Assembly: GCF_041361345.1 (NCBI RefSeq)
Contig: NZ_JBGKAD010000001.1
Location: 806,001 to 870,000 of the forward strand
DNA: 64,000 bases
Direction of reading: 5' to 3'
Source: Halobaculum sp. MBLA0147
Lineage (GTDB): Archaea > Halobacteriota > Halobacteria > Halobacteriales > Haloferacaceae
Positions 23,078-29,788 of this stretch are shown here, one piece after another. The notes under the pieces were generated by a model, which made no database searches, was not told where the DNA came from, and saw only the letters and a program-made list of their open reading frames with translations. The stretch's first letter is position 1, and each line of letters opens with the position of its first letter. The position numbers and the translations under genes were made by a program.

Positions 23078-24010
23078 ATGGACGTACTCGTAGCCGGCGG
23101 TAGTGGGTTCCTCGGATCGTACCTGTGTGCGGAGTTGGCCGACCGTGGCCACGACGTGACGGCGGCCTCGCGGTCGCCGGACGCCGCCGAGTTGCCGGCG
23201 GACGTGTCGACGACACGACTGGACGTGACAGACGCGGCCGACGCCGACGAGGTGGTCCCCGGTCACGACGCCGTGGTCAACCTGGTCGCGCTGTCGCCAC
23301 TGTTCAAACCGGACGGCGGCGACCGGATGCACGACCGCGTCCACCGCGGCGGCACCGAACACCTGCTGGACGCTGCGGAGGACGCGGGTGTCGAGCGATT
23401 CGTCCAGTTGTCGGCGCTGGGTGCCGATCCGGACGGCGACACGGCGTACATCCGGGCGAAGGGCGAGGCGGAGGAACTCGTCTCTGCGGCCGACGTGGAG
23501 GGTGTGATCTACCGCCCCTCGGTCGTCTTCGGGGACGGCGGCGAGTTCGTCGGCTTCACGAAGAAGCTCAAGGGCTGGTTCGCGCCGGGCGTCCCGCTGT
23601 ACCCGCTGCCCGGCGGCGGGAAGACGCGGTTCCAGCCGATCTGGGTCGCGGATCTGGTGCCGATGATCGCCGACGGCGTCGATGACGACGACCGCGCGGG
23701 CGAGACGTACGAGCTCGGCGGACCGGAGGTACTGACGCTGCGAGAGGTGACCGAGAAGGTGTACGACGCGGAGGGTCGCTCCGTCGGGATCGTCCCGCTC
23801 CCGATGGGGCTGGCGAAGGTCGGCCTCGGCGTGATGGGTGCGGTCGGCGGCCCGATGGGGACGGACCAGTACCGATCGCTGCAGTTCGACAACACGACCG
23901 CCCGCAACGACGTCGGCGCCTTCGGTGTCTCGGAGGCGGACCTCACGACGCTCGACGAGTACCTCGCCGGGAGCGCGACGAGCGGTGCCGGTGGTCGCGC
24001 CACTGCCTGA
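23078..24010 (+). CDS. NDUFA9-like NAD(P)-binding epimerase (atypical short-chain dehydrogenase)
   Basis: 310 residues. The N-terminus VLVAGGSGFLGSYLCAEL is the GxxGxxG dinucleotide site of extended SDRs. AVVNLVALSPLF and FVQLSALGADPD follow; the YxxxK site appears as AYIRAKGEAEEL. PSVVFGDGGEFVGF and FQPIWVADLVPM are hallmarks of the complex I NDUFA9 subgroup, members of which bind NADPH and may act in quinone or lipid chemistry. Leaderless: ACATTTAGG lies about 28 nt upstream of the ATG. Substrate unknown. Confidence 0.92.
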   Translation: MDVLVAGGSGFLGSYLCAELADRGHDVTAASRSPDAAELPADVSTTRLDVTDAADADEVVPGHDAVVNLVALSPLFKPDGGDRMHDRVHRGGTEHLLDAAEDAGVERFVQLSALGADPDGDTAYIRAKGEAEELVSAADVEGVIYRPSVVFGDGGEFVGFTKKLKGWFAPGVPLYPLPGGGKTRFQPIWVADLVPMIADGVDDDDRAGETYELGGPEVLTLREVTEKVYDAEGRSVGIVPLPMGLAKVGLGVMGAVGGPMGTDQYRSLQFDNTTARNDVGAFGVSEADLTTLDEYLAGSATSGAGGRATA

Positions 24011-24359
24011 TCGAAGCGGAACCGTCTCGCACGAGACGTGACGGCCGTACGACCTCGCGCCAGTCGGCTCCGGTTCGCCGATCTGAACTGTACACTCACG
24101 GCGAGTGGATCGACCACCGAGAGCGCGTGCCAGCGTCGGGACGACCGATCGTCGGACGCACGGCACACAAGAGATATAAAACACGCGGGACCGAGCGGTG
24201 TGTGACCGACGGACACCGTCCGTCCGAGCGAACCGGCACCGCGGCCACGTCTGGCGGTTCGGGGGGTCCGGGACGAACCGACGATTATCAGGTCTTGCGT
24301 CGGCAACACAACCCTTTTATCTGTGGTCCGACTGGTTCCCCACCAATGGCGGGAGACGC
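24011..24359. other. Gene-free region upstream of cetZ with two AT-rich promoter-like boxes
   Basis: This 349-base stretch carries two AT-rich elements. One, GATATAAAAC (24172-24181), is far upstream and reads as a TATA box in either direction; on the minus strand (GTTTTATATC) it matches the haloarchaeal consensus better. The second, TTTTATC (24315-24321), is the likely cetZ promoter. Between them is a 7-bp perfect hairpin (GACGGAC ACC GTCCGTC, about 24209-24225). Just before cetZ there is a five-codon frame ATG-GCG-GGA-GAC-GCA-TGA starting at 24346, whose TGA overlaps the cetZ start codon. No protein-coding gene of normal size is evident. Confidence 0.6.
24315..24321 (+). promoter_or_regulatory. 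TATA box of the cetZ operon
   Basis: TTTTATC follows a CCC run in GC-rich surroundings. Initiation 25-28 nt downstream falls close to the ATG at 24346 that opens the five-codon frame, or gives a 15-20 nt leader before the cetZ ATG at 24360. That leader contains GGGAG (24350-24354), a weak Shine-Dalgarno-like run. Confidence 0.6.
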
Positions 24360-25550
24360 ATGAAACTGGCACTGATCGGGTTCGGACAGGCTGGGGGGAA
24401 GATCGTCGACAAGTTCGTCGAGTACGATCAACGCAACGGGACAGACATCGTCCGGGCCGCCGTCGCCGTCAACACGGCGAAGGCCGACCTGATGGGGCTG
24501 GAGCACATCCCGGAGAACAACCGGGTACTCATCGGTCAGTCTCGCGTGAAGGGACACGGCGTGGGGGCCGACAACGAGCTCGGCGCGGAGATCGCCGAGG
24601 AAGACATCGACGAGGTACAGGGCGCGATCGACTCGATCCCCGTCCACGAGGTGGACGCCTTCCTCGTCGCCGCGGGGCTCGGTGGTGGGACCGGGTCCGG
24701 CGGCTCGCCGGTGTTGGCGAAACACCTCAAGCGAATCTACACGGAGCCGGTGTACGGGCTGGGCATCCTGCCCGGCTCCGACGAGGGCGGGATCTACACG
24801 CTCAACGCCGCGCGGTCGTTCCAGACGTTCGTCCGCGAGGTGGACAACCTCCTCGTGTTCGACAACGACGCCTGGCGGAAGACTGGGGAGTCCGTCTCGT
24901 CGGGGTACGAGGAGATCAACGAGGAGATCGTCAAGCGGTTCGGTATCCTCTTCGGCGCCGGCGAGATCGAGGAGGGTGGGGAGATCGCGGAGAGTGTCGT
25001 CGACAGCTCCGAGATCATCAACACCCTCGACGGCGGCGGCGTCTCGACGGTCGGGTACGCCCGCGAGGAGGTCGAGGAGGCCGGCGGCGGCGGTGGTGGC
25101 GGGGGACTCCTCTCCCGGATCACCGGCGACGACGGCGAGGACGAGCTCGACACCGCCCACACGACCAACCGGATCACCTCGCTGGTCCGGAAGGCGGCGC
25201 TGGGGCGGCTGACCCTGCCGTGTGAGATCGACGGCGCCGAGCGGGCGCTGCTCGTGATGGCGGGGCCGCCGGCCCACCTCAACCGGAAGGGGATCGAGCG
25301 CGGGCGGAAGTGGCTCGAAGAGCAGACGGGCTCGATGGAGGTCCGTGGTGGCGACTATCCCGTCAAGGGGTCCGGCTTCGTCGCCAGCGTGATCCTGCTG
25401 TCCGGGGTCACCAACGTGCCGCGCATCAAGGAGTTGCAACAGGTTGCCATCGAGGCGCAGGACAACATCGACGAGATTCGCGAGGAGAGCGAAGACAACC
25501 TCAACGACCTGATACAGGATGACGACGACGAGTTGGAATCACTCTTCTAG
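24360..25550 (+). CDS. cetZ: Tubulin/FtsZ-superfamily cell-shape GTPase CetZ
   Basis: 396-residue cytoskeletal GTPase that in haloarchaea controls cell shape and rod development rather than division. The nucleotide-binding N-terminus is LALIGFGQAGGKIVD; the tubulin signature is GLGGGTGSGGSPV (106-118). VFDNDAW and ERALLVMAGPP fall in the T6 and activation-domain regions. A Gly-rich insert (residues 240-250) and an acidic C-terminal tail (QDDDDELESLF) are present; CetZ1-type proteins carry such tails. The ATG overlaps the TGA of a five-codon upstream frame. The last 32 nt overlap the next gene, which implies coupled translation. CetZ rather than FtsZ is judged by NTAKADL and the 396-residue length. 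Confidence 0.95.
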   Translation: MKLALIGFGQAGGKIVDKFVEYDQRNGTDIVRAAVAVNTAKADLMGLEHIPENNRVLIGQSRVKGHGVGADNELGAEIAEEDIDEVQGAIDSIPVHEVDAFLVAAGLGGGTGSGGSPVLAKHLKRIYTEPVYGLGILPGSDEGGIYTLNAARSFQTFVREVDNLLVFDNDAWRKTGESVSSGYEEINEEIVKRFGILFGAGEIEEGGEIAESVVDSSEIINTLDGGGVSTVGYAREEVEEAGGGGGGGGLLSRITGDDGEDELDTAHTTNRITSLVRKAALGRLTLPCEIDGAERALLVMAGPPAHLNRKGIERGRKWLEEQTGSMEVRGGDYPVKGSGFVASVILLSGVTNVPRIKELQQVAIEAQDNIDEIREESEDNLNDLIQDDDDELESLF

Positions 25551-26313
25551 ACTGCTCGCCGTGGCCGCAGTGGTGGCACTGTTGGCCGCCGCGGTCGCGC
25601 CGGCCACTGCCGTCTCCGTCGCGGAGACGGACGCGCCGGACAGCGCCGCGGTCGGCGAGGAGGTGTCGCTCACGATCACACTGACGGAACTGTACCGAGA
25701 GCCGTCGCTCGAACAGTGGGAGCTGTCCGGGGCGACGGAGCTGACCAACCCGACGTGGACGGTCGTCCTGTACGACCAGACCGGTGCGAAGGTCGGACAG
25801 GAGTCGTTCGGCGGGCAGACGTTCGCGGGCGTGAGCGTCGTGGCCGACGACGGTGTGAGCGAGGTCGAGGTGCAACTCACCGGGTCGGTCCCGGAGGTCG
25901 CCGAGTACACCTACGACCCCCACCAGACGTTCGAGGCGGCGACGCTCGAACAGGTGCCCCCGGGTGGTGGGGCCAACGAGTTGACCAGCGTCGCGACCGA
26001 GCACTTCACCGAGGAGAGCCAGTCCGCTCGCGAGGCGCTCGACGCTGCGAGCTCCGAGATCGAGGCCGCCGGGAACCCCTCGGAGGCGACGGAGACGTTC
26101 GGGCTCGCCGTGAGTGCCTACGAGAGTGAGAACTTCGACAACGCCCAGAAACTCGCCGACGAGGCGAAGGGGCAGGCACAGCAGGCCCAGAACACGGCGA
26201 ACCGCAACCGGCTCATCCTGATGGGTGCCGGCGCGTTACTCGTGTTGGGGATCGCCGCCGGCGGCGTCTTCTACTGGCGCTCCCAGCAGGACAGCACCGA
26301 CCGCCTCGGGTGA
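25519..26313 (+). CDS. Secreted/membrane-anchored protein coupled to cetZ
   Basis: 264 residues. The N-terminus is a Sec signal peptide (LLAVAAVVALLAAAVAPATA, cleavage near residue 31). An extracytoplasmic beta-rich domain follows (EEVSLTITLTELY, TWTVVLYDQTG, VEVQLTGSVPEVAEYTY), then a helical stretch of about 85 residues, and one TM helix near the C-terminus (ILMGAGALLVLGIAAGGVFY) with a short cytoplasmic tail. Its start lies inside cetZ, overlapping by 32 nt, so expression is tied to cetZ. I do not recognise a named family. A membrane or cell-surface partner of the CetZ cytoskeleton is a plausible inference from the coupling alone. Confidence 0.85.
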   Translation: MTTTSWNHSSRLLAVAAVVALLAAAVAPATAVSVAETDAPDSAAVGEEVSLTITLTELYREPSLEQWELSGATELTNPTWTVVLYDQTGAKVGQESFGGQTFAGVSVVADDGVSEVEVQLTGSVPEVAEYTYDPHQTFEAATLEQVPPGGGANELTSVATEHFTEESQSAREALDAASSEIEAAGNPSEATETFGLAVSAYESENFDNAQKLADEAKGQAQQAQNTANRNRLILMGAGALLVLGIAAGGVFYWRSQQDSTDRLG

Positions 26314-26314
26314 G

Positions 26315-26995
26315 ATGCGCGTCCTCGTGCCGTTCGCGGCCGGACGGCCGAAGACGCGACTCGCGGACGTTCTGGACCGCGACGAACGACGAGCGTTCGC
26401 CGAGGCGATGCTGTCTGACGTGCTCGCCGCGGTCCGTGCCGCCGGCCACACGCCGGAGTTGCTCACCACGGAGCGACTCGACCGCGACGTGACACAGACC
26501 GTCGACGACCGACCGCTGGGGACGGCCGTCGACGCCGTGCTCGCCGAGCGGCAACCGACACGGGAGTCGCCGCTCGGAATCGTGATGGCGGACGTGCCGC
26601 TGGCGACGGCCGAGAGCGTCCGCCGTCTGACCGGCGAGCGGCACGCGGGCAACGGCGAGCGCGGCGACGAGGCCACCTCGGAGTCCACCCCGAGAGCAGA
26701 CCTGGTGTTCGCGCCAGGACTCGGTGGGGGAACGAACGCGATGGTCGTCGCGCACCCGGGGTTCCGGACGGACTACCACGGCGCGTCGATCCGCGACCAC
26801 CGGCGTGTCGCAGCGCGGTTGGACGCACGGGTGCGCGAGGTGGACTCGCGGCGGCTGGCGACGGACGTGGACGACCCGGCGGACCTCGCCGAGGTGTTGC
26901 TCCACGCCGACGGCGCCGCACACGACTGGCTGGTCGACGCCGGGTTCACCGTGCGCACCGGCGACGGGCGGGTCGGCGTCGAGCGGACGGGGTAG
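26315..26995 (+). CDS. cofC: 2-phospho-L-lactate guanylyltransferase
   Basis: Coenzyme F420 biosynthesis: couples phospholactate or phosphoenolpyruvate to GTP. The 226-residue length fits the family, and so do the N-terminal MRVLVPF-AGRPKTRLA nucleotidyltransferase loop, MADVPLAT (91-98, metal-binding Asp93) and APGLGGGTNAMV (133-144). The C-terminal part conserves FGxx-type HxxxA substitutions (TDYHGASIRDH). It starts one nucleotide after the stop of the membrane protein gene, so it is the third gene of the cetZ operon. From memory, cof genes also lie next to cetZ1 in other haloarchaea. A Ser/Glu-rich insert near 110-127 is probably a surface loop. Confidence 0.93.
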   Translation: MRVLVPFAAGRPKTRLADVLDRDERRAFAEAMLSDVLAAVRAAGHTPELLTTERLDRDVTQTVDDRPLGTAVDAVLAERQPTRESPLGIVMADVPLATAESVRRLTGERHAGNGERGDEATSESTPRADLVFAPGLGGGTNAMVVAHPGFRTDYHGASIRDHRRVAARLDARVREVDSRRLATDVDDPADLAEVLLHADGAAHDWLVDAGFTVRTGDGRVGVERTG

Positions 26996-27581: not shown

Positions 27582-29576
27582 CTACTCCGCGGCGTCGCCG
27601 CCGAAGGGGTCCGACTCGTCGGTATCCTCGTCCGAGGCGGTTGCGTCGCTACCCGACGACTCCGACTCGTCGGTGTCTCCGTCCGAGGTGGCTGCGTCGC
27701 TACCCGACGACTCCGACTCGTCGATGTCTCCGTCCGAGGTGGCTGCGTCGCCGCCGAACAGTTGCTCGCTCGCCCCGTCTCCGTCGGACGTGTCCGCCAC
27801 CGAATCGGCACTGTCGAACACGTCCTCGTGGGTACCGGTGTCGAACTCGAAGCGGGCGCCCCCCGCCTCGCTGTCCGTCGCGGTGACCGACCAGCCGTGT
27901 GCCTCGGCGACCGTCGAGACGATGGCGAGCCCCAGTCCGGAACCGTCCGACTCCGTGGTCGTCCCCCACTCGAAGAGGTCGTCTTCGTCGACCGTCGGGA
28001 GCCCCGGTCCGTCGTCGGCGACGTAGAACCCGCCGTCCGCGAGCGGCCCGACCTCGACCGTCGTGTCGCTCCCACCGTGTTCGACCGCGTTCCGAAAGAG
28101 ATTCTCGAAGACGGATGCGAGTCGTCCCTCGTCGGCCGGGACGACCGTGACCCCCCCGATCGACAACTCGGCGTCGCGCGTGTTCACGCGGCTCCACGCC
28201 TCGCGTGCGACCGCCTCCAACTCCACCGGCTCCACGTCGCCGATGTCGCTGCCGTCGCGGGCCAGCGTGAGCACGTCCTCGATGAGCTGTTCCATCCGAT
28301 CCAAGGCGTCGGCCACCTTCTCGAACCCCTGCTCGTGGCCGTCTGCGGCGAGGTCGAGCCACCCGTCCGCGACCGCCAGTGGGTTCCGGAGGTCGTGGCT
28401 GACGACACTGGCGAACTGTTCGAGGCGCTCGTTCTGGCGCCGCAACTCGCGTTGTTGCCGCCGGCGCTCGACGGCCCGCGTGACGAGTTCCGTCACCGTC
28501 TCGATCAGGTCCACCTCCTCGTCCGACCAGACGCGACTCTCCGGGTCGTCGAACACCGTGACGCCGATCAGTCGGAACTCCGAGGAGAGCATCGGCGCGA
28601 CGACGCCCGAGCGGCCCGGCGGGCCGACCGTCCCCTCCGCGCTCGGGTGACAGCCCGGGTCGCCGTACTGGACCGTCTCGAACCGAGCGACGCGGTCGAG
28701 CCACTCGGCGTGTGTCTCCGCCGGGTCCAGCGTCTCCGGCAGCGGCCCCGGCGGTGGCATCACTCTCACGTCGCCGTCCGCTCTGCCGTCGGTCGTGTCG
28801 TCCGTCGCGTCGCCGTCGGTCGTGTCGTCGTCCGTCGTGTCGTCGTTCGTCGTGTCGTCGTCCGTCCACTCCGCCGACCCGTCTACGGAGGGCCCGTCCG
28901 TCTCGGAGTCCGCCTCCGTGTGGGTCCCGCCGTCGGCCGCGCTGGCGGCGTAGGCGTCGGCCGTCCACGTGTGGGTCCGCTCGTAGTCGCCGTCCGTCTC
29001 CAAGTACGTCGCCGCCCGTCCGATGTCCATGAACTCCGAGACGGTCTGGAGCGTGAACGACACCTTCGTGTCCAACTCGTCCGGCGTCGCCGACATCAGG
29101 TTCGTCGCGGCGTCGAGCGCGATGTCGCGCATCCCCGCTCGGTACTGGAGGTGGTCGTCCGTCGCGCCGTCCGTCGAACGGCGCTTGGCGACGGCGTTGC
29201 GGACCCGCTCGGCGAGCAGGCGGATCGTCTCCGGGTCGCCGTCTTTCACCATGTAGTCGGTGACGCCGGCCCGGAAGGCGTCGCGAGCCGTCTCCTCGCC
29301 GCCACGGGCGGTGAACAGGACGAACGGCAGCGCGGAGTGGCGCTCGCGGAGCGCCTCCAACAGGTCCAGTCCGTCGCGGCCGGGCATGTCGTAGTCCGAG
29401 ACCACACAGTCGATCGGCTGGTTCGCCAACACCTCCAGCGCCTCCTCGACACCGGTCGTGGGTGTCACGGACAGCGGCGGGTCGCCGTCGTCGTCCTCCA
29501 GCCAGTACTCGACGAGGTCCGCGAACTCGGGCTCGTCGTCGACGTAGAGGACTCGGACCGCGCCCGCCTCGACCAT
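27582..29576 (-). CDS. Receiver-GAF-histidine kinase sensor
   Basis: 664 residues, soluble. Order: receiver domain (1-120; acidic YVDDEP, phospho-acceptor Asp61 in VVSDYDMPG, Thr89, Lys111); linker; GAF-like domain (about 150-375) interrupted by an Asp/Thr-rich insert (DDTTNDDTTDDDTTDG, 239-254); H-box QFASVVSHDLRNPL with His394; N-box FENLFRNAVEHGG; G2 SDGSGLGLAIV. A receiver in front of a kinase without a membrane segment is a common haloarchaeal arrangement. The C-terminus adds three 17-residue acidic repeats. The ATG follows a T-rich patch (TTTTTGATCG on the minus strand, about 29597-29606). Confidence 0.93.
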   Translation of the reverse strand: MVEAGAVRVLYVDDEPEFADLVEYWLEDDDGDPPLSVTPTTGVEEALEVLANQPIDCVVSDYDMPGRDGLDLLEALRERHSALPFVLFTARGGEETARDAFRAGVTDYMVKDGDPETIRLLAERVRNAVAKRRSTDGATDDHLQYRAGMRDIALDAATNLMSATPDELDTKVSFTLQTVSEFMDIGRAATYLETDGDYERTHTWTADAYAASAADGGTHTEADSETDGPSVDGSAEWTDDDTTNDDTTDDDTTDGDATDDTTDGRADGDVRVMPPPGPLPETLDPAETHAEWLDRVARFETVQYGDPGCHPSAEGTVGPPGRSGVVAPMLSSEFRLIGVTVFDDPESRVWSDEEVDLIETVTELVTRAVERRRQQRELRRQNERLEQFASVVSHDLRNPLAVADGWLDLAADGHEQGFEKVADALDRMEQLIEDVLTLARDGSDIGDVEPVELEAVAREAWSRVNTRDAELSIGGVTVVPADEGRLASVFENLFRNAVEHGGSDTTVEVGPLADGGFYVADDGPGLPTVDEDDLFEWGTTTESDGSGLGLAIVSTVAEAHGWSVTATDSEAGGARFEFDTGTHEDVFDSADSVADTSDGDGASEQLFGGDAATSDGDIDESESSGSDAATSDGDTDESESSGSDATASDEDTDESDPFGGDAAE
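27585..27737 (-). repeat. Three in-frame 51-bp repeats at the kinase C-terminus
   Basis: Each unit encodes 17 residues of the type SDGDxDESESSGSDAAT. The first two copies are near identical; the last is degenerate (ending DPFGGDAAE). It is coding, acidic and probably disordered. Confidence 0.9.
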
Positions 29577-29638
29577 ACCGTCTGTGTGGGACGTTCGATC
29601 AAAAACACTCCGACTCCCGTAGCGCCCACGAGACCACC

Positions 29639-29788
29639 CTGTCACCCCGGCCCGTGTCGGTCCCGTCACTCCGAACCCCACGTCCGCCCCGTCACCCCAA
29701 ACCCCACGTCCGCCCCGTCACCCCAAACCCCACGTCTGCTCCGTCACTCCGACCTCGTGTCGGTCCCGTCACCCCGGCCCGTGTCGGT
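29639..29788. repeat. Six 24-26 bp tandem units at the 3' end of the EamA transporter gene
   Basis: Units begin at 29639, 29663, 29689, 29715, 29741 and 29765. Each starts CCxGTCAC, so on the minus strand each ends with GTGAC and contains a potential TGA. Outer units share a CCGTGTCGGT ending; inner units share CCCACGTCCG. The unit at 29741 holds the real stop of the transporter gene. The inner 26-bp units are nearly identical, so expansion is recent. Confidence 0.9.

Follow-up and report, generated by a model that had tools for sequence, protein, structure and literature searches.

In the window, a 64,000-nucleotide stretch of DNA from Halobaculum sp. MBLA0147, the gene that directly follows cetZ1 encodes a membrane protein, here called mid, which is a strong candidate for a CetZ membrane anchor or receptor and has a short inner tail conserved across the phylum. 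We consider it reasonably probable that mid is a type I membrane protein tethering CetZ through this tail, and that cetZ and mid form an ancient module with cofC as a bystander; there are no binding, localisation or phenotype data. The features of the locus, all read from the forward strand, are as follows, with their basis in brackets.

23078-24010, +: nolA-like NAD-dependent nucleotide-sugar epimerase/dehydratase gene (ORF; neighbourhood and sequence reading only)
24315-24320, +: possible TATA element, ttttat, about 40 nt 5' of the cetZ1 start (inferred from letters read directly)
24360-25550, +: cetZ1, tubulin-superfamily cytoskeletal GTPase, 396 aa, C-terminus DDDDELESLF (ORF, Pfam)
25519-25550, +: 32-nt cetZ1/mid overlap (the mid ATG is the +1 reading of the CetZ1 Asp-Asp pair GAT GAC)
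25519-26313, +: mid, 264 aa, putative type I membrane protein and candidate CetZ tether (ORF, alignment, AF2, dN/dS)
25519-25611, +: predicted mid signal peptide, residues 1-31, ending in APATA (sequence, alignment; a low-confidence helix in AF2)
25612-26007, +: predicted extracellular Ig-like beta-sandwich of mid, residues 32-163 (AF2, fold comparisons)
26008-26205, +: predicted helical stalk of mid, residues 164-229, in relatives weakly like DUF4398 (AF2, profile match)
26206-26274, +: predicted transmembrane helix of mid, residues 230-252 (hydrophobicity, AF2 helix 206-258)
26275-26310, +: predicted cytoplasmic tail of mid, WRSQQDSTDRLG, family consensus YWRSQQDxYDKLG (alignment, information content)
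26315-26995, +: cofC, 2-phospho-L-lactate guanylyltransferase of coenzyme F420 synthesis (Pfam, NCBIfam)

The overlap between cetZ1 and mid includes the cetZ stop codon. Mid runs from an ATG at 25519 to a TGA that ends at 26313, and a single base (26314) separates it from the cofC ATG at 26315. The initial annotation had proposed the order cetZ-mid-cofC with a 32-nt overlap and a 1-nt spacing, which is confirmed by the coordinates of the ORFs and by the family models. The CetZ of the window matches CetZ_C (PF21011; 9e-81, 270 bits against a cut-off of 21.6) and Tubulin (PF00091; 8e-32, 111 bits against 33), and CofC matches Pfam CofC (1e-28) and TIGR03552 (2e-40, 138 bits, meeting the equivalog cut-off of 105), so that both identities are certain. 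The requirements of the CetZ1 subfamily are also met, namely a Tubulin/FtsZ GTPase domain followed by CetZ_C, with nolA upstream and cofC downstream, and the protein is 84-90% identical to CetZ1 from named Halobaculum, Halobellus and Haloferax species. The genome encodes three CetZ_C proteins and one mid; neither of the other two CetZ genes has a mid-like neighbour. Mid itself matches no Pfam or NCBIfam family above its cut-off. Elsewhere in the window, at 27582-27900 on the reverse strand, a response-regulator/histidine-kinase ORF (27582-29681) has a C-terminus built from Asp/Ser-rich repeat units (ATSDGDTDESESSGSDA...).

The nolA-like gene is the conserved upstream neighbour of cetZ1. Main-text passages of Brown and Duggin 2023 already report cetZ1 with nolA (arCOG03015, in 20 of the 20 cetZ1 regions analysed) upstream and cofC nearby in haloarchaea, and few similarities among the non-haloarchaeal, non-pili cetZ regions (PMC9856176). 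The membrane protein goes unmentioned in those passages, and it might appear among the uncharacterised arCOGs in the figures or tables of the same paper. Two papers (PMC9856176, PMC11621097) treat the way in which CetZ works at the archaeal cell surface as an open question. Our literature search found no paper describing mid and no candidate for a CetZ membrane partner, tether or receptor. A search for HVO_2203, which we take to be the Haloferax volcanii locus tag, also returned nothing.

The first description of mid as a secreted, C-terminally anchored protein holds, as the sequence predicts a signal peptide and, together with the AF2 model, a single C-terminal transmembrane helix. According to topology rules, a signal peptide, one transmembrane segment and a basic tail give a cytoplasmic C-terminus. 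Because mid has these three elements in its sequence, its C-terminus of about 12 residues should be cytoplasmic. The AF2 model (33 sequences, mean pLDDT 82.7) contains a beta-sandwich at residues 33-163 and helices at 165-183, 188-202 and 206-258, the last of which spans the membrane; the signal peptide and the last residues are of low confidence, so the model is silent on any complex of the tail. In a comparison with solved structures, the outer domain resembled common Ig-like surface domains (VIA Z up to 8.8) and no family beyond generic Ig-like folds. Such matches to a predicted model agree with an exposed ectodomain and name no function. The beta-sandwich is common to Ig-like adhesin, pilin and cohesin domains of the surface, a match of fold only, which may reflect nothing more than a common arrangement, and no sequence relation has been shown. 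The helical stalk of mid relatives weakly matches DUF4398 (PF14346; 11 of 20 members at E up to 0.1, best 2e-6), whereas the window mid has no match up to E = 1 and the tested representatives of other families stay below the gathering cut-off. Mid has no archaeosortase (CTERM) sorting signal above an NCBIfam cut-off, the only such match being GVDTG_CTERM (E 0.11, 12.8 bits against a cut-off of 29). All testable features of the CetZ-adjacent type I membrane protein family, a family that we define here, are present in the window protein: signal peptide, beta-sandwich, helical region, single C-terminal transmembrane segment, a position directly downstream of a CetZ gene and a tail of the form x-D-(K/R/E)-L-(G). 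In three relatives (L130, L181, L200) about 70-100 extra residues, Ser/Asp/Gly-rich at their end, lie between stalk and membrane segment, and the tail end is kept (RDPLG).

Values of 0.16-0.34 for dN/dS between relatives, and a start ATG that tracks its presence, show mid to be a real gene under purifying selection and not a chance reading frame. An ATG in the +1 frame within the last 12 cetZ codons was found in 81 of 82 loci with mid and in 2 of 85 loci without it (Fisher p ~1e-44; relatedness is uncorrected, and a few genomes are present under two locus ids). It arises where a GAT-G stretch, coding for part of the Asp-rich end of CetZ1, is read in the +1 frame. The Asp codon concerned is GAT where mid exists and nearly always GAC in mid-less genomes, and GAT accounts for only 2 of the 29 Asp codons in the window cetZ. 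Replacing GAT by the synonymous GAC at the right Asp codon of cetZ1 would thus abolish the mid start and leave CetZ1 unaltered. Most loci have an overlap of 32 nt, the others one of 23, 26 or 29 nt. Gene pairs with efficient termination-reinitiation lie between -8 and about +10 nt, in H. volcanii and generally, and complexes are over-represented among such coupled pairs. Overlaps beyond that length are uncommon, and in one phase the long ones are apt to persist, being hard to shorten (PMC10666635). Tight coupling had initially been inferred from the overlap, an inference that has to be given up, because 32 nt falls outside this range and proves neither coupling nor a fixed stoichiometry. The conserved feature of the overlap is the start codon of mid.

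To see how widely the arrangement occurs, we compared the genomes of the class. The mid profile matches 203 of 391 genomes, including three spurious partial matches, one interrupted by a stop codon and three in genomes without a CetZ_C protein. The three spurious matches (L187-L189) were weak and were not accepted as mid, having no BLAST match to it. CetZ1 (E up to 1e-100) is present in 365 of the 391 genomes. About 196 of these 365 (about 55%) carry an intact mid as well, against 3 of the 26 genomes without CetZ1 (p 2e-5, relatedness uncorrected). In every locus inspected, mid lies after cetZ1, or in its place, and before cofC unless the contig ends: mid adjoins cetZ1 in 43 inspected haloarchaeal matches, with cofC next where the contig allows, and about 40 named loci likewise read cetZ1-mid-cofC. 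The refuting condition set for the proposal, that most genomes with this cetZ lack the middle gene or have it at another place, does not hold.

About 170 of the 365 CetZ1 genomes have no mid, and mid is missing from whole genera, Halorubrum among them; further examples of mid-less CetZ1 genomes are Halolamina, Halonotius, Halohasta and most genera of coded family f7. There, cofC directly follows cetZ1; wherever cofC was located, the gap between the two measures 8-311 nt, with a single exception. CetZ1 can therefore function without mid, which is an accessory: several lineages keep CetZ1 without it. On the CetZ1 tree, mid switches between presence and absence only 4-5 times, and from its deep distribution beyond the haloarchaea we infer that these switches are mostly losses from a mid-bearing ancestor. 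Genomes without a CetZ_C protein are unusual for the class (G223, G263, G269, G027, G095, G173 of coded genus g25; G326, G329 of g6). A stop codon breaks mid in one of the CetZ-less g6 genomes, and in three CetZ-less g25 genomes nolA-mid-cofC is kept with cetZ missing. As three CetZ-less genomes keep an intact mid, the outer domain would have some use of its own. In genome G102, a second mid copy (L190) without the tail motif lies away from any cetZ, beside a transcription initiation factor B-like ORF.

Searching the whole phylum with the mid profile from haloarchaea gave weak homologues, and 9 of the 9 inspected lie directly downstream of a CetZ gene without cofC. A second search was seeded by one non-haloarchaeal CetZ protein, and the downstream side of 80 loci was examined. 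It turned out that an automatic filter recovered a protein with a signal peptide and a single C-terminal transmembrane segment in 57 of the 80; three further loci (L271, L289, L292) were picked out on visual inspection, and with one locus set aside because it ends too soon, the count is about 60 of 79. The genomes are inferred to be those of methanogens and relatives. By HH-align, the haloarchaeal mid set is related to a 270-300-aa set (E 3e-20, 99% probability) and to a 365-390-aa set (E 6e-20, 99% probability, with the terminal motif aligned), and the latter to a 390-435-aa set (E 2e-33). Most of these genes start 0-20 nt from the cetZ stop, some with overlaps of 1 or 4 nt (L216, L215), a spacing more suggestive of coupling than the 32-nt overlap. 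Since the non-haloarchaeal mid-like proteins follow cetZ without cofC, the best explanation, judged from sequence comparison alone, would be an ancient cetZ-mid pair, a two-gene module of the phylum, with cofC as a haloarchaeal bystander. The suggestion in the initial annotation that the cofC link may reflect only shared transcription is supported by the same absence of cofC. In this way the F420 link, haloarchaeal and probably incidental, is separated from the ancient pair of cetZ and a membrane protein.

The tail of mid is remarkably constant. The last 12 residues carry a mean of 3.18 bits, against 2.65-2.83 for ectodomain, stalk and transmembrane segment (the N-terminus encoded in the overlap is left out). 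Among distinct cetZ-adjacent haloarchaeal C-termini, 74 of 75 end in (K/R/P)-L-x, mostly YDKLG, and the window mid ends in TDRLG. WDELG is invariant (19 of 19) in the 365-390-aa set, whose proteins are 27-40% identical to its first member. For the 57 non-haloarchaeal tails, 35 fit (W/Y/F)(D/E/G)(K/R/E)L and 16 end in R(G/K/R)(I/V)(Y/F), mostly from coded family f22, where RG(I/V)(Y/F) largely stands instead of the Leu motif; the other six are PPLG (two), GKLG, DKLGKW, FQRL and FRRL. The motif is lost in the three CetZ-less genomes with mid, whose tails end in RDR or SDR, and in the G102 paralogue (SEHR). Overall divergence does not explain the loss, because equally diverged mids adjoining cetZ (L182, L186, L020) retain the motif; the cases amount to about two independent events. 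In all DNA examined, 93 of 341 distinct ORF ends with a C-terminal transmembrane segment bear the motif (this background includes unused reading frames), and 93 of these 93 are CetZ neighbours. Whether or not mid is present, CetZ conserves its C-terminus to the same degree, and no CetZ surface was shown to covary with mid. In coded genus g51 (L175, L176, L178), where CetZ is clearly diverged (about 61% identical), the mid tail is altered as well (PSRLQ/PSRLR/PSRLK), and co-adaptation of the two might be sought there.

These observations can be assembled into a mechanism. The signal peptide would export mid, which would show its Ig-like domain on the helical stalk to the cell envelope, span the membrane once and leave about 12 residues in the cytoplasm. 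The tail with its free C-terminus, (Y/W)-D-(K/E/R)-L-G, may then dock on CetZ, so that CetZ filaments or sheets would be tied to the membrane and the outer envelope or given their position there, with cofC presumably a co-transcribed bystander. Topology signals, conservation, adjacency and loss of the tail motif in CetZ-less genomes are established as far as sequences can establish them; binding of the tail to CetZ, and of the outer domain to the S-layer or another envelope part, is inferred. A CetZ-binding peptide on an envelope-exposed anchor is the most economical reading, because the CetZ-facing part is held constant across ectodomains of differing length and sequence, and disappears from mid in genomes that lack CetZ. 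A published study reports that CetZ1 associates with the envelope and is abundant in vesicles (PMC10927574). The idea of a surface or membrane partner of CetZ, put forward initially, is thus strengthened by the pairing in haloarchaea and in non-haloarchaeal families, not by the overlap, and its physical interaction remains an inference. More tentatively, and short of what we would assert, mid could be a transmembrane adaptor that links outside and inside like an integrin, from the envelope (S-layer) to the CetZ cytoskeleton via C-terminal WDELG/YDKLG, having arisen before the haloarchaea diverged from the phylum's other families, its outer domain diversifying with the envelope and its CetZ-facing peptide fixed.

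Known membrane tethers of FtsZ are ZipA, FtsA, SepF, EzrA and MapZ. Like them, mid would join a tubulin-superfamily polymer to the membrane, but they act on FtsZ and mid would act on CetZ, and its layout (signal peptide, large outside domain, short inside C-terminus) is opposite to that of ZipA and EzrA. No ZipA, SepF, EzrA or MapZ family was found among the Pfam and NCBIfam matches of mid. What mid provides is a specific and widespread candidate for a CetZ membrane partner, with a five-residue motif to mutate.

It is also conceivable, though rather unlikely, that mid and CetZ serve one process (cell-shape change, envelope growth or motility) in which mid contacts other proteins, the tail being a signal for a protease, MinD or a secretion factor and the adjacency only co-regulation. 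Adjacency and tail conservation leave the binding partner unnamed, MinD proteins position CetZ1 and LonB degrades it (PMC11621097, PMC9263693), and mid persists without CetZ in three genomes; but exactly there, and in the paralogue away from cetZ, the motif is gone, and in the DNA examined it occurs only on CetZ neighbours. That mid is a general envelope protein which merely happens to follow cetZ in a frozen operon, its overlap hard to shorten, appears improbable. By our own arithmetic the 23, 26, 29 and 32-nt overlaps do belong to the hard-to-shorten phase, and the few switches on the CetZ1 tree fit such inertia; yet the pairing persists across families with different flanking genes, and the tail is conserved across a length change from about 260 to 435 aa.

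We give hardly any credence to the remaining alternative, in which mid belongs with cofC and F420 metabolism and cetZ is the bystander, despite the retention of nolA-mid-cofC in the CetZ-less genomes and a short mid-cofC spacing (median 6 nt). A functional mid-cofC link is disfavoured by mid adjoining cetZ without cofC outside haloarchaea and by cofC staying beside cetZ1 in mid-less haloarchaea, nor is it apparent what an exported protein would do in the cytoplasmic synthesis of F420. Tethering of CetZ by the mid tail remains the reading that we prefer.

A different gene follows cetZ in some genomes of coded family f21 (L245-L247, L251, L253, L266, L267, L275, L279), namely a UbiX-like flavin-prenyltransferase ORF (MKLIVALTGASGQIVG...), whose start often lies at an ATGA-type 4-nt overlap. 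With cofC in haloarchaea, two unrelated flavin-type cofactor genes are thus found adjoining cetZ.
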